From Cycloclasticus sp. 46_120_T64 (GTDB lineage Bacteria; Pseudomonadota; Gammaproteobacteria; Methylococcales; Cycloclasticaceae), in the NCBI GenBank assembly GCA_002162695.1, contig MAAM01000006.1, positions 244,065 through 308,064 on the forward strand: 64,000 nucleotides of DNA. The letters run 5' to 3'. Positions within the stretch are counted from its first letter, which is position 1, and every line of letters starts with the position of its first letter. The notes beneath the pieces were generated by a model. That model was not told where the DNA came from and did not search any database. It saw only the letters and a program-made list of their open reading frames with translations. Position numbers and translations under genes: made by a program. Below are positions 20,078-49,599 of this stretch, in pieces.

Positions 20078-23000
20078 TCAGCTATCAGTCATTTCCTTGA
20101 GCTTTTCCTGCATTGTGGTTTTTAGGCTGGTAAAACTATTCTCTAATATGGGTAAATAACTACTGACACTATCCATATCATTTGCTTTGCTTGCGATTTC
20201 TATTTTTAAGGCTAGCTCACTAAGCTCAAGGCCACCAACGCTCGCAGAAGCGCCTTTGATTGTGTGGCCGATGACACCGGCTAGTTCAGTATTGTTTTGT
20301 TCAATGCTTAACTTAAGCTCGTTTATCTGCCCATGTAAGTCGATGTAAAACTGCTCTGAAACGGCCTTCATTAACGCAGGTTTATGCATTAAACGTTTGC
20401 TCATGTCATCAAAATCGAATATTAGTTTTTTGCTTTCAGTGTCAGGTTGCTCTGCCGGTAATGAATTTGTTGAGACTTTTCTCCTGATACGCTCAGGAAG
20501 CCAATGCTCGAGCATGTTAGCTACTTTTTCGGGGTCAATGGGTTTAGCAATATAGTCATCCATGCCGGCGCTTAAACATTTTTCTTTATCACCGGCCATC
20601 GCATTGGCCGTCATGGCAATCACGGGAATCGCCGGGTTTGCTAAACCGGTGCCTGCTTCTCGAATTTTAGTGGTGGCAATATAACCATCCATCACCGGCA
20701 TTTGACAATCCATAAACACCAGGTCGTGATGATTGCCTCGCTGTAAGGCCGCAATGGCCTCTTCACCGTTAGCGGCTAAATCAACCGATAAACCAAAGTT
20801 GCTAAGTAAGCCTTGGATGACCAGTTGGTTAGTGACGTTATCTTCAACGACTAAAATATGACCTTTAAATTGATATTTTTCACGGCTGGTAAAACGAGTG
20901 ATTAATTTTTTAGAACTATCGCTAAGTCCCGACACTTGCACAACAACATCAAACAATTCGGACTGATGAATGGGTTTAGTAAGGTAGCCATTAAAACCGG
21001 CCGCCTGCATTTTTTTGGCATCACCTCTTTGCGCATGTGATGTTGCCATAATCAACTTGACCCCTTGGAGCGCGGGGCTGGCATGAATCACCTTGCTAAG
21101 CTCAAGACCGTCCATTTCTGGCATATTCATGTCTAAAATGACGAGGGTATAAGGAGCCCCTGAGGTTGCGGCTGCGCTTAATTCAATGAGTGCCGCCTTA
21201 CCGCTGGCAGCCAAGGCATGTGGAATACCCCAAATATCATGTAATTGATGCATCAAATCACGGTTAGTGGCGTTGTCATCAACGATCAATAGTTTTTGTT
21301 TATCTAAGTTATCAATGCTCAACTTTTCTTCGCCAAAGTGTTCGGCGGCGTCTAAATCTAAGCTGAACCAAAAGTTAGACCCTTGGCCAAGGGTACTATG
21401 GACACCGACCTCACCGCCCATTAACTCGACTAATTTTTTGCTGATGGATAAGCCTAAACCAGTTCCGCCATATTTTCGAGTGGTTGAGGTATCGGCTTGA
21501 GAAAACTGATCAAATAGTTTTTTTTGCTGCTGCTGATCAATACCAATGCCGGTATCTTTTACTTCAAAAAGCACCTGTTTACGCAGCCCTTGGTCTTCAA
21601 TACTGACAAAAACAGCCACTTCACCTTGGTCAGTAAACTTAATGGCATTGCCAATGAGGTTGGTTAAAATTTGACGAATTCGTCCAGGGTCAGCTTTTAC
21701 CCATTGTTGAATGATGGGGCTGGCCGGGCAAATAAGCTGTATGCCTTTATTGTCGGTTTGAAAAGACAATGTGTTGCCTAAGTCCTCCACCAATTGGCCT
21801 AGGTTAAAGTTGAGGTACTCAAGGTCTAACTTACCCGCTTCAACTTTTGAGAAGTCGAGAATGTCATTAATAATGCCGAGTAAACTTTCACCCGATGATT
21901 TAACCGTTTTGGCTAATTTATGCTGCTCTGCTGACAGCTGAGAGTCTAACAATAAATTGGTCATGCCGATAACACCGTTCATGGGGGTGCGTATTTCGTG
22001 GCTCATATTGGCTAAAAAGTCAGTTTTACTGATATTGGCCACTTCTGCTTCGGCCTTAGCAATAGCCAGCTTTTCAATGGTTTCTTTTTGAGTAGTGATA
22101 TCGGTTCTTATGGAGGTGTAGCCGATTAACTTATGGTCGATGTCGTGATTGGGAACAATGGTGGTATCGACCCAGTAGTAATGGCCATCTTTAGCGGTGT
22201 TACGCACCTCGTCATGCCAGGGTTGACCTTTAGAGACGGTTAAATACATCTCACGCCAATAGTCTTTAGGCTGATTGGCGGAGTTTAATAGGCGATGGTT
22301 TTGGCCGATCAGTTCCGCTTCGCTATAGCCACTGACCTCGATGAACTTTTTATTCACCGATATAATGTTGCCTTTGATATCGGTCATCGTGGAGGTGTAG
22401 CCGATTAACTTATGGTCGATGTCGTGATTGGGAACAATGGTGGTATCGACCCAGTAGTAATGGCCATCTTTAGCGGTGTTACGCACCTCGTCATGCCAGG
22501 GTTGACCTTTAGAGACGGTTAAATACATCTCACGCCAATAGTCTTTAGGCTGATTGGCGGAGTTTAATAGGCGATGGTTTTGGCCGATCAGTTCCGCTTC
22601 GCTATAGCCACTGACCTCGATGAACTTTTTATTCACCGATATAATGTTGCCTTTGATATCGGTCATCGACACCAAGGAGTGTTCGTTTAAGGCAAGCCGG
22701 GCTGTTTCTGCTTGCTTCAGGGCTGTTTCTGCTTGCTTCAGGGCTGTTTCTGCTTGCTTCAGGGCTGTTTCTGCTTGCTTCAGGGCTGTTTCTGCTTGCT
22801 TCTGGGCATCTTCTGCTTGCTTCTGGGCATCTTCTGCTTGCTTCTGGGCATCTTCTGCTTGCCTCTGGGCATCTTCGAGTAGCGCTGCATTTTCTTTTGA
22901 TTGGCTGATATCGGTTCGAATGGAGGTGTAGCCAATTAATTTATGTTGGTTATCGAAATTGGGAACAATGGTGGTATCGACCCAATAGTGATGGCCATCT

Positions 23001-24055
23001 TTGGCGGTGTTACGCACTTCGTCATGCCAGGGTTTACCTTTAGAGACGGTTAAATACATCTCGCGCCAATAGTCTTTGGACTGGTTGGCGGAGTTTAATA
23101 GGCGATGGTTTTGGCCGATCAGTTCCGCTTCGCTATAGCCACTGACCTCGATGAACTTTTTATTCACCGATATAATGTTGCCTTTGATATCGGTCATCGT
23201 GGAGGTGTAGCCGATTAACTTATGGTCGATGTCGTGATTGGGAACAATGGTGGTATCGACCCAGTAGTAATGGCCATCTTTAGCGGTGTTACGCACCTCG
23301 TCATGCCAGGGTTGACCTTTAGAGACGGTTAAATACATCTCACGCCAATAGTCTTTAGGCTGATTGGCGGAGTTTAATAGGCGATGGTTTTGGCCGATCA
23401 GTTCCGCTTCGCTATAGCCACTGACCTCGATGAACTTTTTATTCACCGATATAATGTTGCCTTTGATATCGGTCATCGACACCAAGGAGTGTTCGTTTAA
23501 GGCAAGCCGGGCTGTTTCTGCTTGCTTCAGGGCTGTTTCTGCTTGCTTCAGGGCTGTTTCTGCTTGCTTCTGGGCATCTTCTGCTTGCTTCTGGGCATCT
23601 TCTGCTTGCTTCTGGGCATCTTCTGCTTGCCTCTGGGCATCTTCGAGTAGCGCTGCATTTTCTTTTGATTGGCTGATATCGGTTCGAATGGAGGTGTAGC
23701 CAATTAATTTATGTTGGTTATCGAAATTGGGAACAATGGTGGTATCGACCCAATAGTGATGGCCATCTTTGGCGGTGTTACGCACTTCGTCATGCCAGGG
23801 TTTACCTTTAGAGACGGTTAAATACATCTCGCGCCAATAGTCTTTGGACTGGTTGGCGGAGTTTAATAGGCGATGGTTTTGGCCGATCAGTTCCGCTTCG
23901 CTATAGCCACTGACCTCGATGAACTTTTTATTCACCGATATAATGTTGCCTTTGATATCGGTCATCGACACCAATGAGTGTTCATTTAAGGCAAACTGCG
24001 CGGCCTCAGTTTTTCTTTGCGCTTCTTCGAGCGTGGTTTTTAACAGCATGCTCAT
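20078..24055 (-). CDS. Hybrid sensor histidine kinase with five PAS repeats, two receivers and Hpt
   Basis: 1325 residues, no membrane segment seen, so probably cytoplasmic. Order: short N-terminal coil; PAS1 (~27-135); heptad coil 1 (~136-183); PAS2 (~184-285) fused directly to PAS3 (~286-390); heptad coil 2 (~391-455); PAS4 (~456-557) fused to PAS5 (~558-655); HisKA with phospho-His 686 (NMSHEIRTPMNG); HATPase with NLIGNAIKFTDQG and GTGLGLSIS; receiver 1 (Asp975, VILDMNMPEMDG); receiver 2 (Asp1116, VFMDCQMPVMDG); and a C-terminal Hpt with His1264 (GHTIKGASASVGG). It is a full BarA/ArcB-style phosphorelay. The PAS domains are almost identical and share SVNKKFIEVSGYSEAELIGQ, which suggests recent duplication. 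The gene is 33 bases behind the REC-GGDEF-EAL gene, so they are likely one operon. The cognate output regulator is not visible. Confidence 0.95.
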   Translation of the reverse strand: MSMLLKTTLEEAQRKTEAAQFALNEHSLVSMTDIKGNIISVNKKFIEVSGYSEAELIGQNHRLLNSANQSKDYWREMYLTVSKGKPWHDEVRNTAKDGHHYWVDTTIVPNFDNQHKLIGYTSIRTDISQSKENAALLEDAQRQAEDAQKQAEDAQKQAEDAQKQAETALKQAETALKQAETARLALNEHSLVSMTDIKGNIISVNKKFIEVSGYSEAELIGQNHRLLNSANQPKDYWREMYLTVSKGQPWHDEVRNTAKDGHYYWVDTTIVPNHDIDHKLIGYTSTMTDIKGNIISVNKKFIEVSGYSEAELIGQNHRLLNSANQSKDYWREMYLTVSKGKPWHDEVRNTAKDGHHYWVDTTIVPNFDNQHKLIGYTSIRTDISQSKENAALLEDAQRQAEDAQKQAEDAQKQAEDAQKQAETALKQAETALKQAETALKQAETALKQAETARLALNEHSLVSMTDIKGNIISVNKKFIEVSGYSEAELIGQNHRLLNSANQPKDYWREMYLTVSKGQPWHDEVRNTAKDGHYYWVDTTIVPNHDIDHKLIGYTSTMTDIKGNIISVNKKFIEVSGYSEAELIGQNHRLLNSANQPKDYWREMYLTVSKGQPWHDEVRNTAKDGHYYWVDTTIVPNHDIDHKLIGYTSIRTDITTQKETIEKLAIAKAEAEVANISKTDFLANMSHEIRTPMNGVIGMTNLLLDSQLSAEQHKLAKTVKSSGESLLGIINDILDFSKVEAGKLDLEYLNFNLGQLVEDLGNTLSFQTDNKGIQLICPASPIIQQWVKADPGRIRQILTNLIGNAIKFTDQGEVAVFVSIEDQGLRKQVLFEVKDTGIGIDQQQQKKLFDQFSQADTSTTRKYGGTGLGLSISKKLVELMGGEVGVHSTLGQGSNFWFSLDLDAAEHFGEEKLSIDNLDKQKLLIVDDNATNRDLMHQLHDIWGIPHALAASGKAALIELSAAATSGAPYTLVILDMNMPEMDGLELSKVIHASPALQGVKLIMATSHAQRGDAKKMQAAGFNGYLTKPIHQSELFDVVVQVSGLSDSSKKLITRFTSREKYQFKGHILVVEDNVTNQLVIQGLLSNFGLSVDLAANGEEAIAALQRGNHHDLVFMDCQMPVMDGYIATTKIREAGTGLANPAIPVIAMTANAMAGDKEKCLSAGMDDYIAKPIDPEKVANMLEHWLPERIRRKVSTNSLPAEQPDTESKKLIFDFDDMSKRLMHKPALMKAVSEQFYIDLHGQINELKLSIEQNNTELAGVIGHTIKGASASVGGLELSELALKIEIASKANDMDSVSSYLPILENSFTSLKTTMQEKLKEMTDS
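22700..22876 (-). repeat. 21-bp heptad microsatellite, longer array
   Basis: Each 21-base unit encodes seven residues of coiled coil. Reading the protein: one DAQRQAE, three DAQKQAE, four TALKQAE, then TARLALNEH. The copy number differs from the second array, so length changes in steps of exactly one heptad and never breaks frame. Confidence 0.93.
23508..23651 (-). repeat. 21-bp heptad microsatellite, shorter array
   Basis: Same units as the other array but with only two TALKQAE units: one DAQRQAE, three DAQKQAE, two TALKQAE, then TARLALNEH. It links PAS1 and PAS2 of the kinase. Confidence 0.93.
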
Positions 24056-43169: not shown

Positions 43170-44855
43170 TTAGTGTTCATCACATTCCGCTAAAAAAGTT
43201 AATAACTCTTCACGGTATTTATAATAATCTGGGTGTGCCACCAGAGCTTTACGTGTACGTGGCCTAGGCAAATCAACGCTCATTACTTTACCCACTTTTG
43301 CATTAGGCCCATTGGTCATCATCACCACTCGATCAGCTAACAGAATCGCTTCATCTACATCGTGGGTCACCATAATGGCAGTCACTTTTGTACGTGTCCA
43401 AACTTCCATGAGCACTTCTTGCAGTTCCCAGCGCGTGAGTGCATCTAGCATACCAAAGGGCTCGTCTAACAATAAAAGCTTCGGTGACAAGGCAAAAGCA
43501 CGTGCAATGCCTACACGTTGTTTCATACCATTGGAGAGCTCTGCGGCTTTCTTATTGAACGAGTTACCCAAGCCTACTTTACTGAGATAATACTCAACAA
43601 TATCATTGCGCTGCGCTTTTGAAGCATGTGGATAAACACGTTCAACCCCAAGCGCGACATTTTCTTTGGCACTTAACCAAGGGAAAAGACTCGGTGCTTG
43701 GAAAACAACAGCACGATCAGGGCCCGCAGCGTCAATCTCTTTTTTATCCAGTACGATACCGCCATCACTGACCTCCGTTAAACCCGCCGTCATTGATAAG
43801 ACCGTCGACTTCCCGCAACCCGAGTGCCCAATGATGGATATAAACTCGCCTTTCTTGATATTAATATTAAAGTCGTCAACAACCGTTAATGGGCCTTTAG
43901 GTGTTGGGTAAACTTTAGTTAGATTGAAATATTCGAGGTACTTTTTATCACCTATGCCCTGCTGGTAAGGCTTTAAAGCACTCGGTTCCCCCTCTTCATT
44001 TAAAGAAAAATCACTCGCAGTATTTGGCTTAACATTCGGTAATTGATAAACATTGTTTTTTGATTGTGAGGAATCGCTGATGCCAACATTCATTAAATAT
44101 TGAGTAATATCGCTGCGTAGCTTCTTGAACTTCTCGTCATGATTCATGGCCGTTCTATCACGCGGCCTGGCTAGGTCAACAATAAACTCTGGACCAAATG
44201 TTGCGTTAGGCCCGGGGTTCAATGGAATGATCCTATCGGCCATAATAAGGCCTTCATCGACATCATTGGTAATCAGCACAACTGTTTTCTTTTCATGCTG
44301 CCAAATACGAATAATTTCATCTTGAAGGTTAGCGCGGGTTAATGCATCTAAGGCACTCAGCGGCTCATCCAACAATAACACTTGCGGGCTTGCCGCTAAT
44401 GCACGTGCCACGTTAACTCGTTGCCTCATCCCACCGGAAAGCTCCGACGGATGACGGTGAGTCGCATGAGATAAACCCACCATGTTGATATATTTTTCGA
44501 TCCGTTGTTGTCGCTCCGTTGCCGATAAATCTTTAAATGCTGAATCCACCGCGAGGGCGACGTTACCAAACACCGTTAACCATGGCATCAATGAATAGCT
44601 TTGAAAAACCACGCCGCGTTCAGAACTTGGACCGGTGACCTTTTTTCCACCCATAATAATCTCACCACTATCTGGCTTAATTAAACCGGCAATGGTTGAA
44701 ATAAGGGTGGTTTTTCCTGTCCCTGAAAAACCAACGATGGCAACGAACTCCCCCTCCTTTATATCTAAGTTTATATTGCTCAATACCTCTGATTTATTGT
44801 TTCCAGAGCCGTAGGATTTACTGATGTTTTTAAGTGTTAAAAATGACATATTCAC
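43170..44855 (-). CDS. Nitrate ABC transporter, two-domain ATPase
   Basis: 561 residues containing two complete ABC ATPase domains in tandem. Domain 1 has Walker A GFSGTGKTT (42-50), signature ELSGGMRQR and LLLDEPLSALD; domain 2 has GHSGCGKST, signature ELSNGMKQR and LLLDEPFGMLD. Cyanobacterial transporters use separate NrtC (ATPase plus sensor domain) and NrtD; here one chain provides both nucleotide sites and the NrtC solute-binding tail is absent. It is the last gene of the operon, six bases behind the permease. Nitrate is the likely substrate given nasT; cyanate or bicarbonate relatives exist. Confidence 0.93.
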   Translation of the reverse strand: MNMSFLTLKNISKSYGSGNNKSEVLSNINLDIKEGEFVAIVGFSGTGKTTLISTIAGLIKPDSGEIIMGGKKVTGPSSERGVVFQSYSLMPWLTVFGNVALAVDSAFKDLSATERQQRIEKYINMVGLSHATHRHPSELSGGMRQRVNVARALAASPQVLLLDEPLSALDALTRANLQDEIIRIWQHEKKTVVLITNDVDEGLIMADRIIPLNPGPNATFGPEFIVDLARPRDRTAMNHDEKFKKLRSDITQYLMNVGISDSSQSKNNVYQLPNVKPNTASDFSLNEEGEPSALKPYQQGIGDKKYLEYFNLTKVYPTPKGPLTVVDDFNINIKKGEFISIIGHSGCGKSTVLSMTAGLTEVSDGGIVLDKKEIDAAGPDRAVVFQAPSLFPWLSAKENVALGVERVYPHASKAQRNDIVEYYLSKVGLGNSFNKKAAELSNGMKQRVGIARAFALSPKLLLLDEPFGMLDALTRWELQEVLMEVWTRTKVTAIMVTHDVDEAILLADRVVMMTNGPNAKVGKVMSVDLPRPRTRKALVAHPDYYKYREELLTFLAECDEH

Positions 44856-44861
44856 TACTCC

Positions 44862-46004
44862 TTACATTGCGTCGCCGTATGAAAAATACTTTTGTAGCGT
44901 CAACATAATACGATCGAGCATAAAGCCGATAATACCGATGGTGAACACAGCAACCATTATTTTACCGAGGGAGTGCTGACTACCATTTTGGAACTCATCC
45001 CAAACAAATTTTCCTAAACCTGGGTTTTGCGCCAACATTTCTGCTGCAATCAATACCATCCAGCCCACCCCTAGCGACAAACGCAAACCGGTAAATATCA
45101 TTGGCAAAGAGCTAGGCAATACAATTTTAGTCACTGTTTTCCACCAGCCAAGCTGCAATACTTTTGACACATTCATTAAGTCCTTATCAATGGTTGCAAC
45201 ACCCACAGCGGTATTAATGAGTGTTGGCCATAACGAACATAAGGTAACGGTAATGGCTGACACGAGAAATGATTTGCTAAAAGAAGCGTCGCCATCGGCG
45301 GTATATAAAGCACTAACAATTAACGTCACAATCGGTAACCACGCTAACGGTGAAACGGGTTTAAATATTTGAATAATCGGGTTAATCGCCGCATTAAAAG
45401 ACGGGCTTAAACCACATACCACACCCAGCGGAATAGCAACAACGGATGCTAAGATAAACCCTGCAAATACAGTCCATAGACTGGTGATTATTTGCTGGGG
45501 GTAGGTCGCTTTACCGGTGTAACCACGAATTTTTATAACTGCATCAGGGTTTTTCTCAAGCTTTTTAGCATTCCTAAGCTCTTGTCTTTGATAAAACGCG
45601 ACTTCTTTATCCTTTTCTTTGTAATGGTCGGCGGCCAGGCTTTTAGTTTCTTGCCAAACGGCGACTGGCCCAGGAATTGCGCCCAAACTGGTGTGTATTT
45701 TTGACGCACCCCAGCCCCAAAAACCTATAAAAATTAGCATCGCAAGTACCGGCACGCCGATAATTTTTAATATTTCTTTAAATTGCTCTGCTGGGTTTTC
45801 GCCAGCCAATAGCTTAACGATCGGAATAAACCAGGTGAAACCAATCAGCTCAAGAAAGTTATTAATTCTGAGTGATACCTTAACGCCTTCTTTAGCGCTG
45901 TTTTTATCCGGTACCGGCTTAGTGTTTACTTGAGATTTAGCGTCCTCGATACCCGTGGCTTTGTTTTCCATACTTCCTTCTTTTACTGCTGTATTTACAG
46001 ACAT
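44862..46004 (-). CDS. nrtB: Nitrate ABC transporter permease
   Basis: About 380 residues from the ATG with GAGGG upstream (46004). A hydrophilic N-terminus of ~65 residues leads to an early membrane segment (VLAMLIFIGFWGWG) and then the usual NrtB/SsuC-type block of five to six segments with SLWTVFAGFILASVVAIPLGV and the EAA-like loop GWWKTVTKIVLPSSLPMIFTGLRL. Forms the membrane pore with the two-domain ATPase. Confidence 0.94.
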   Translation of the reverse strand: MSVNTAVKEGSMENKATGIEDAKSQVNTKPVPDKNSAKEGVKVSLRINNFLELIGFTWFIPIVKLLAGENPAEQFKEILKIIGVPVLAMLIFIGFWGWGASKIHTSLGAIPGPVAVWQETKSLAADHYKEKDKEVAFYQRQELRNAKKLEKNPDAVIKIRGYTGKATYPQQIITSLWTVFAGFILASVVAIPLGVVCGLSPSFNAAINPIIQIFKPVSPLAWLPIVTLIVSALYTADGDASFSKSFLVSAITVTLCSLWPTLINTAVGVATIDKDLMNVSKVLQLGWWKTVTKIVLPSSLPMIFTGLRLSLGVGWMVLIAAEMLAQNPGLGKFVWDEFQNGSQHSLGKIMVAVFTIGIIGFMLDRIMLTLQKYFSYGDAM

Positions 46005-46074
46005 TTTAATACCCTCTTTTTGATACCAATGAACACTCGCAACCTCACGAGTGTTCATTGTTTATTGACGAGAC

Positions 46075-47466
46075 TTACTTAACGCTATCGCTACCTTTAA
46101 GACCAATATCGAATTTTTCTAAATAGGCATTAGGGGTGTGCCCATCAAACGTGATGTTGTCGATAAAGTGAGTTTGTGGTGCACGGTAACCGTCGGTATC
46201 CCATGGCATGTCTTCTTTAGAAATTTTGCCCTCACCCAGTAATTCTTTAGCGGCCGCTAAATAAACGTCTGGGCGATATACTTTTTTAGCAATCTCGTGA
46301 AACCATTGATCCGACTTCTCATCCGTTATTTGTCCCCAACGACGCATTTGCGTTAAGTACCAAATAGCATCTGAGTAATACGGGTAGGTGGCGTAATAAC
46401 GATAAAATACGTTAAAGTCTGGCAACTCTCTTTTGTCACCTTTTTCGTATTCAAACGTGCCGGTCATGCTATTTGCAATCACCTCATAATCAGCACCCAC
46501 GTATTCAGATTGAGAAAGAATTTTTACCGCCTCAGGGCGGTTGGCATCGTTATTGTCATCTAACCATTTAGCCGCGCGAATCAGCGCCTTAATCACCGCT
46601 ATATGGGTGTTTGGGTTAGCTTTAGCCCATGCCGCACTCACACCAAATACTTTTTCTGGATTGTTTTTCCATATTTCATAATCAGTGACAACCGGCACAC
46701 CGATACCTTTGAAGACAGCCTGTTGATTCCACGGCTCCCCTACGCAATACCCAAAAATAGTACCGGCTTCCAAGGTCGAAGGCATTTGCGGAGGCGGAGT
46801 AACCGATAAGAAGGCATCCGCATCAATTTGCCCGGTGATATCTGTTTTAGAATAAAAACCTGGGTGAATACCGCCGGCGGCTAACCAGTAACGTAGCTCG
46901 TAGTTATGGGTTGAAACAGGAAAAACCATACCCATTTTGAATTGCTTGCCCTCTTCTTTAAATCGATCAACAATCGGTTTCAAGGCATCCGCTTTAATCG
47001 GGTGAACAGGTTTACCGTTAGCATCTTTGGCAATGTTGGGTTTCATTTCAGCCCATACATCATTAGATACCGTAATCGCGTTTCCGTTTAAGTCCATGCT
47101 AAAGGCGGTCACGATGTCAGCTTTTGTACCGAAACCAATGGTTGCCCCTAACGGCTGGCCTGCCAACATATGCGCGCCATCTAACTCACCATCAATAACA
47201 CGGTCTAAGAGAACCTTCCAGTTAGCCTGTGGTTCGATGGTGACGTAAAGCCCCTCGTCTTCAAAAAAGCCTTTTTCATAGGCTATCGCCAAGGGAGCCA
47301 TGTCGGTTAACTTGATAAAACCAAATTTCAACTCGTCTTTCTCAAGCTCGCCAACGGCATAAGAGTTTGATAGTCCACCGGCCACTGTTAATGCCAAACC
47401 GGCTAAGCAGCTCTTAAAAAGAGCCCTCATATCCGTGTTAATCAATGCCTTTTTCTCATTATCCAT
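46075..47466 (-). CDS. nrtA: Nitrate-binding periplasmic protein NrtA
   Basis: 463 residues. A signal sequence ([22 protein letters not shown]) precedes a NrtA/CmpA-type binding fold: [49 protein letters not shown], and [13 protein letters not shown]. The signal peptide argues against its being the cytoplasmic sensor NasS, which has the same fold. AAAGGAAAATAA precedes the ATG. A terminator hairpin lies between nasT and this gene. Confidence 0.94.
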
Positions 47467-47491
47467 TTATTTTCCTTTGTGTTTAAAAATC

Positions 47492-47545
47492 AAAAAAAAA
47501 CGTCCACAGCTCGCTTATCTCAAAAGAGAAAGGAACTGTGGACGT
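47492..47545 (-). terminator. Leader terminator upstream of nrtA, candidate NasT antitermination target
   Basis: Read leftward: ACGTCCACAG (47545-47536), a 26-base loop, CTGTGGACGT (47509-47500) and then nine T. It lies within the transcript between nasT and nrtA, only 26 bases before the nrtA ATG. Upstream on the same RNA are two small hairpins, CCCAA-TG-TTGGG (47602-47591) and GATC-ATTAA-GATC (47571-47559). ANTAR proteins bind paired hairpins and prevent such terminators from forming. The exact hexaloop signature of ANTAR targets is not clearly seen, so the link is partly inferred. Confidence 0.75.
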
Positions 47546-47622
47546 CGTTGTCCAAAATGATCTTAATGATCGGGTTATTTTTTTTACCGCCCCAACATTG
47601 GGTCATACTACTGACTCATTCT

Positions 47623-48207
47623 TTACTTCATTAATTCACTCGCTGAGATTACGCTTTGGGCTAAATCGGCCATCTTAATGTTTTTATCCATCGCCATTTT
47701 ACGCATGGCTTTATAGGCGGCGTCTTCAGTAATGTGTGAACGCTACATCAAGATGCCCTTGGCTCGATCAATTAACTTTCGTTCATTGAGGGTGTTTTTA
47801 GCTTTCTCAAGCTCATTTTTAATACTCTGTTGCTCGTTAAAACGAAAACGCGCGGTATCTAAAATAGACGACACCCGTTTAGCTTGAAGCCCATCAACAA
47901 TATAAGCACTCACACCCGCTTTAATCGCTAACTGAATAACATCCCTGCTATCGTCATAAGTAAAAATGACCACTGGAATGGGGTGATGCAAATTAATCTG
48001 CTGTACACAGCTAAATAATTGATCAAAGCGTTTATCAGTAACAGCCATCACAAGATCCACCGTCCCCGCAAGCGAGACTCGACTGACCTCACTTAACTCA
48101 GGTGTCACCACGACTATGTCGTAATTCGTGGCCGATAAGCGCTCTTGAATATCAACCAAATCATCAGCCGTTGTGTTGAATAATAGAATTTTGCTTTTCA
48201 TATCCAT
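47623..48207 (-). pseudogene. nasT: ANTAR response regulator NasT interrupted by an in-frame TAG
   Basis: The frame encodes a NasT-type protein: an N-terminal pseudo-receiver (KILLFNTTADDLVDIQERL, VVIFTYDDSRDVIQLA), a coiled linker and then the ANTAR domain starting RKLIDRAKGILM. There a TAG (47745-47743) stops it at residue 154. Past the TAG the same frame continues with RSHITEDAAYKAMRKMAMDK and on to SASELMK and TAA at 47625, all typical ANTAR sequence. Total length with the TAG read through is 194 codons plus stop, normal for NasT. A CAG (Gln) or AAG (Lys) to TAG change explains it. The truncated product lacks most RNA-binding helices. NasS, the usual partner, is not present in this window. 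Confidence 0.9.
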
Positions 48208-48240: not shown

Positions 48241-49524
48241 CTAAAACTTAGCCTGTACAAATGCCCAAACTTTTGTGACATCGTTAACTGCCGCTGTATT
48301 TAAGCTGTTGTTATCGGCCTTAAAGTCAGCATACTTAAGGCCAACCGTGTAGTTTTTGGCGACTTTCTTCGTTGCTAGCAGATTAAATTCGGTGCCATAA
48401 TCGTAACTGCCTTTGTCTGAACCAAACTGATGAAAAGCTGTTACAAACTTCACCCCATAGGCTTTTGCAACCGCGGTGATATATATATCTTCCAAACCAT
48501 CACCTGGGGTTACTAAGAACTGATCAGACCAACCTTGGTACGCATGGTTAGTACCCAAAATTGTCACGAAACGATCTTTGCCACCATGACCTTCTTGTAG
48601 TTCATAACTGGCCTTCACTAATAACATCTTAATAGGGCCGTCGAAGGTCATTTTTGCACCCGCTTCGGCTAACCAATAATCTGCATCAATAGAGTCTGGA
48701 TTATCAGCCGCATCTGACTGGTTGGCATATTCAGCAGTATAAATAGCCTTCACTCCATCTGCTACTGGCGTCCCACCACTCGCTCTTAAGCCGTAAGTGT
48801 TGGTTGAAAAGGTATCAGCATTTTTAAAGTCATATAAATAAGCGTAGGCTTCAAGTTTTACCGGCTTAAAACCGGTGTATTGAAGGTTGAATAAGTTAGA
48901 TGCGCTATCGAAATCATCCCATGCCGCCGATGCATCTTCACCGAAGATACGGTTAACATTCCATACATAAGCGTAACTAATGGTTGTGTCTTTGATCGAT
49001 GTATTGATAACAGACAGGGCATCCAACGTTTGCCAATTTTGCCGCCATGCAACGGTACCGACATGCCTATGAAATGGTGCATCACGGTAAGTCAGTGCTT
49101 GTCGACCTAGCTTAATCGAGGTATCCGCCAGACCTGTATATTGCAGGTAACCTTGGTTTAGCTCGGTTTCATTTGGATCTGCAATAACAGGGTACTTCGC
49201 CCCTTTTGCTTGAGACTTATGTGCGTAGTTATTACTAAACAAGCTATGGACACTTTCAATTTCAGCAAAAGCAGAAAAACCGTAGTAACTAGCTGTTTTG
49301 TATGTCGCCGTTAACCTAGCCGTATAGGCATTCGCTTCTTCTGGTTTATTTTCTTGATCTACATTTTCATAACGTAAGCGCGCGCTGAAACTCGCTTTGC
49401 CATTTGTTAACGCATTAACAAGCGACTCTTCCGCACTGGCGGTGGGTGCAGCACTGATCGCCATAGTACCCGCTAAAAAACTTAACAATGCATTTGTTTT
49501 AGGGCTGTTTTTTTTAATTTTCAT
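48241..49524 (-). CDS. Outer-membrane porin (alginate-export/porin family) of the nitrate operon
   Basis: About 427 residues from the ATG at 49524 (AGAG upstream). Signal peptide TNALLSFLAGTMAISAAPTASA, then a beta-barrel pattern with alternating aromatic strands: FSARLRYENVDQ, YTARLTATYKTA, LGRQALTYRDAPFHRHVG, and a C-terminal ...VWAFVQAKF ending in Phe, the BAM signal. It is likely the outer-membrane pore for nitrate import, since it is the first gene behind the sigma-54 promoter and 33 bases ahead of nasT. Substrate specificity is inference. Confidence 0.87.
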   Translation of the reverse strand: MKIKKNSPKTNALLSFLAGTMAISAAPTASAEESLVNALTNGKASFSARLRYENVDQENKPEEANAYTARLTATYKTASYYGFSAFAEIESVHSLFSNNYAHKSQAKGAKYPVIADPNETELNQGYLQYTGLADTSIKLGRQALTYRDAPFHRHVGTVAWRQNWQTLDALSVINTSIKDTTISYAYVWNVNRIFGEDASAAWDDFDSASNLFNLQYTGFKPVKLEAYAYLYDFKNADTFSTNTYGLRASGGTPVADGVKAIYTAEYANQSDAADNPDSIDADYWLAEAGAKMTFDGPIKMLLVKASYELQEGHGGKDRFVTILGTNHAYQGWSDQFLVTPGDGLEDIYITAVAKAYGVKFVTAFHQFGSDKGSYDYGTEFNLLATKKVAKNYTVGLKYADFKADNNSLNTAAVNDVTKVWAFVQAKF

Positions 49525-49563
49525 GTTGAAATCTCTAAAATTAATTAATACAAACCGTATAAA

Positions 49564-49599
49564 TAAAAAAAGCCAACTCAAATAATATTCAAGTTAGCC
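49564..49599 (-). terminator. Leader terminator upstream of the porin gene
   Basis: Read leftward, GGCTAACTT pairs with GAGTTGGCT (9 bp, three G-U) over an 11-base loop and runs into seven T. It sits 40 bases before the porin ATG and about 85 bases after the predicted sigma-54 start point. Another small hairpin, TTGCAT-TCTTT-ATGCAA, lies at 49676-49660. The layout mirrors the nrtA leader, so the same antitermination may act twice. Confidence 0.75.

Follow-up and report, generated by a model that had tools for sequence, protein, structure and literature searches.

A probable recent nonsense mutation in the NasT-type antiterminator gene that precedes the nrtABC operon in a Cycloclasticus genome

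Two described systems are close to the locus analyzed here. For NasT of the NasS-NasT system of Paracoccus denitrificans, binding to leader RNA has been shown (PMC3795266). For NasR of Klebsiella oxytoca (PDB 4AKK), SELEX selects a hairpin having a hexaloop with A1 and G4 and a C:G closing pair, and a mutation of W362 severely reduces RNA binding; in the known ANTAR leaders, the second hairpin and the terminator are mutually exclusive (PMC7496416).

We analyzed a window, i.e., the whole stretch of 64,000 nucleotides, from Cycloclasticus sp. 46_120_T64, a marine oil-degrading bacterium in which NasT would be expected to switch on the nitrate importer. Like the Paracoccus protein (PMC3795266), the NasT encoded in this window combines a REC-like part with an ANTAR domain and has no NIT domain, and its gene is linked to nitrate genes and adjoins a leader with a terminator. 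However, it differs from that system in three respects: the gene contains a premature TAG, we found no NasS-like protein, and the target is an nrtABC transporter operon rather than nasA. The ANTAR domain aligns with that of NasR over residues 112–191, and the hairpin has the same closing pair and the same A1/G4 hexaloop (PMC7496416); NasR, in contrast, senses nitrate through its own NIT domain. The stop itself is an ordinary kind of mutation. With an ordinary point-nonsense pseudogene it shares the single stop, the otherwise intact frame and the intact relatives, and only its very recent look sets it apart.

On the minus strand, a porin-like gene is followed by nasT, the leader, nrtA, nrtB and nrtC/D (Table 1). 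As the earlier note had described, with correct coordinates and codon count but no strand, a TAG lies inside the ANTAR domain of NasT and 39 codons follow it; the minus-strand frame translates into 154 residues, TAG, 39 residues and TAA. The TAG falls between the first and the second ANTAR helix: positions 1–21 of the 54 positions of the Pfam ANTAR model match 5′ of it, while positions 23–54 match 3′ of it. Because this match spans both sides of the stop, the frame past the TAG is not a chance open frame, and the 39-residue tail, even when searched alone, matches the model with an E-value of 7.6e-11. Only if the TAG is read through does NasT pass the Pfam cut-off of 27.3 bits: the domain scores 79 bits with the TAG read through ('1 TAG' inside) and 76.7 bits with a glutamine supplied, but 24.6 bits in the 154-residue product as encoded.

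Table 1. Positions, within the 64,000-nucleotide window, of nasT, its leader and the adjoining genes
Feature	Position	Strand	Remarks
Porin-like gene 5′ of nasT	48241..49581	-	Intact
nasT (REC-like + ANTAR)	47623..48207	-	194 codons + TAA, interrupted at codon 155
In-frame TAG (nasT codon 155)	47743-47745	-	Gln/Lys codon in genus orthologues
39 conserved codons 3′ of the TAG (ANTAR helices 2-3)	47626..47742	-	ANTAR positions 23-54, 42.1 bits
Candidate P1-like hairpin	47591..47602	-	CCC-AATGTT-GGG (loop A1, G4)
ANTAR-type P2 hairpin	47540..47553	-	GGAC-AACGAC-GTCC
Intrinsic terminator stem	47499..47546	-	Followed by T run to ~47492
nrtA (NMT1_2 substrate-binding protein)	46075..47466	-	Intact
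nrtB-like permease	44862..46058	-	Intact
nrtC/D-like double ATPase	43170..44855	-	Intact

Matches to nasT were obtained in 39 of the 61 genomes searched, and no copy other than the one studied here contains a stop; at codon 155, none of the 38 other matching genomes has one. The orthologues in six other genomes of the genus are 61–82% identical (82% in the nearest relative, G008) and collinear over their full length, without a gap across the TAG site. All six frames are open there, with Gln in five (CAA in G008, G014 and G005; CAG in G001 and G017) and Lys in one (AAA in G004); the residue is not strictly conserved, as NasR has Thr at this position in the alignment. A single C to T change at the first base of CAG suffices to produce the TAG. 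The lesion is thus private to one lineage whose nasT orthologues are intact, as is the case for recent pseudogenes, although the TAG-bearing species is represented by one genome and its base by the assembly only. These results agree with the earlier note, which had offered a fresh nonsense mutation and a sequencing error among its readings of the TAG and had pointed to Gln or Lys in relatives as a check; the contrary case that it named, loss of the 3′ part from all relatives, does not apply, since the six genus orthologues carry this part.

Furthermore, comparison with G008 revealed no sign of relaxed selection in the 3′ part of nasT. We determined a dN of 0.103 for the 152 codons before the stop versus 0.056 for the 38 compared codons after it, with a dS of about 1.5 on both sides; by parsimony, changes on the own branch affect 10 of the 152 codons preceding the stop and 2 of the 38 that follow it. 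Neutral drift of the tail along this entire branch should have produced about 67 non-synonymous changes, whereas no more than five were seen. Hence, by a rough Poisson estimate in which a saturated dS is halved, a neutral period longer than about 15–20% of this branch is unlikely. With no relaxed selection in the tail, three readings are left: a young stop, a tail that is still translated, or a wrong base.

We consider it probable that one base of this NasT-type antiterminator gene has recently mutated to give a nonsense codon, most likely by a C to T change that turned the Gln codon CAG into TAG. Against this stands the possibility that a sequencing or assembly error has replaced the true base of a Gln codon and that NasT is intact. 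One wrong base would be sufficient, all else from the rest of nasT through the leader to nrtABC is intact and under constraint, and an undamaged tail is equally expected from a wrong base. However, the sequence around nasT looks clean: of 20 genes in the window that have an orthologue in the compared stretches of G008, by a hand count that set aside apparent stops in wrong-strand shadow ORFs, nasT alone contains an internal stop and the other 19 do not. The assembly (2.21 Mb in 15 contigs), moreover, is 99.97% complete, and real young pseudogenes commonly outnumber base errors in such assemblies. A base error is therefore tentative as an explanation and clearly the less likely of the two. With the 19 other orthologous genes stop-free and TAG in use as a normal stop within the window, we rejected both a generally poor assembly and a general change of the genetic code.

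Decoding of the TAG by an amber suppressor, by a near-cognate tRNA or in a programmed event would supply a low dose of full-length NasT. The frame past the TAG is constrained over the branch, as such decoding would predict, and small amounts of an antiterminator might be enough; yet a young mutation accounts for the constraint on the tail equally well. A tRNA family search of the genome recovered 39 tRNAs, none with a CTA anticodon, from a set that is incomplete in having no Ile and no Leu-UAA tRNA, so that a suppressor tRNA could sit in an assembly gap. The genome encodes RF1, which scores over its cut-off, while PylS yielded no match over cut-off (sub-cut-off matches occur likewise in most control genomes), and on these grounds amber suppression was rejected. 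Within the window, TAG serves as a normal stop codon and terminates 11 of 44 non-overlapping ORFs, one of them the truncated nasT (10 without it). Nor do nasT orthologues share an in-frame TAG, as conserved amber recoding would require, the 38 other genomes having no stops. The read-through or suppression considered in the earlier note is thus not supported: we regard read-through as improbable, and slightly more so the proposition that low-level amber read-through limits the dose of NasT, and hence the antitermination of nrtABC, in this species. Finally, the 154-residue form might be a functional variant, e.g., a dominant-negative or partner-binding one, as it retains the N-terminal domain through which other NasT proteins presumably contact their sensor partner. 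But this form is unique to the present genome, the tail is conserved rather than drifting, and no second NrtA-like protein, the possible NasS partner, was found in the genome; we hold such a function to be extremely improbable.

The leader (47490–47605, minus strand) lies directly 3′ of nasT, is followed by nrtA, and is kept with its P2 hairpin and terminator in seven genomes (the present one, G001, G004, G005, G008, G014 and G017). In all seven, A1 and G4 of the P2 loop and the C:G closing pair are invariant, while the candidate P1-like hairpin is clear only in the present genome and in G008, its loop varying in the others. The terminator stem has a folding energy of −30.9 kcal/mol (z −8.1), and a consensus fold was also obtained. 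P2 and the terminator overlap, having one arm in common, which serves as the 5′ arm of the terminator stem and the 3′ arm of P2. Rfam returned nothing useful for the region between nasT and nrtA, and matches to sigma-70-like promoters were at chance level. The exact P2 pattern occurs once in the genome; a second NasT target elsewhere was rejected, as the two matches with one mismatch lie inside coding ORFs and a reversed control pattern gave more matches.

Given a recent nonsense mutation, the consequences for nrtABC can be sketched from this arrangement. In the relatives, family knowledge suggests that full-length NasT would bind the leader and hold P2, so that transcription passes into nrtABC. 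The 154-residue product would retain helix 1 of the ANTAR domain along with the REC-like part but be without helices 2 and 3. In an equivalence read by hand from the alignment, the counterparts of W362 and R366 of NasR fall after the TAG and the counterparts of R340, K345 and K347 before it. Because helices 2 and 3 and the W362 and R366 equivalents are encoded past the stop, the truncated NasT has very likely lost RNA binding, judging from sequence. Such a protein would be unable to hold P2 against the terminator, and nrtABC would be transcribed only at the level of terminator leak-through. On our best reading, then, the stop is a strain- or species-level mutation under which the nitrate importer NrtABC would stay largely switched off. 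The loss of antitermination proposed in the earlier note is supported, as an inference, by the ANTAR-type hairpin and the terminator in the leader that precedes nrtABC.

However, growth on nitrate, which that note had named among its checks, need not fail, as only NrtABC lies behind the leader. A second nitrate locus (L105, 2135–13556, on contig C14) encodes a NarK-family carrier, a PP2C-kinase fusion, NirB and a NasC/NasA-like oxidoreductase. The first of these, an MFS nitrate/nitrite carrier, scores over its cut-off, and nirB is full-length; the molybdopterin oxidoreductase related to NasC/NasA is below the equivalog cut-off and is referred to here as a putative nitrate reductase. A search with the P2 pattern found neither this motif nor a NasT leader at the locus. 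Nitrate would thus also enter through the NarK-family carrier, whose upstream region has no NasT target, and the loss of NasT could be tolerated. In G008, a nirB-like fragment (contig C1, 637425–637802) contains one TAG and one TAA and is perhaps a decayed gene; it lies near a full-length nirB (640532–642898).

The neighbours of nasT match those in G008 at 82–92% identity. Of the 18 genomes of the genus, 7 have nrtA and nasT together and the others have neither, which indicates that members of the genus can do without this importer. Since, in addition, the NarK route has no such leader, a broken nasT should be easy to tolerate. A spare NasT was rejected, the other ANTAR gene of the genome encoding a different protein. 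The latter (225 aa; L002, 1081–1758, on contig C13) has no recognised sensor domain, and its gene adjoins one resembling a gamma-glutamyltransferase gene. With NrtA as the query, each of seven genus genomes gave one match, and no second, NasS-like protein was found in the present genome, although a diverged NasS might escape such a search. In seven Cycloclasticus genomes, nasT thus adjoins nrtA without a recognisable NasS.

If confirmed by reads, the mutation would make this obligate hydrocarbon degrader a natural knock-out of nasT that has kept the leader, the nrtABC operon and another route of uptake intact and that could be used to ask what NrtABC adds beside NarK. The case is also a reminder that the mere presence of the genes is not enough to infer nitrate regulation. 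Elsewhere in the window (20078–24055), a 1325-aa sensor kinase contains near-identical tandem PAS blocks and coiled-coil repeats of the QAEDAQK type; the tandem PAS repeats could be a genuine expansion or an effect of assembly.
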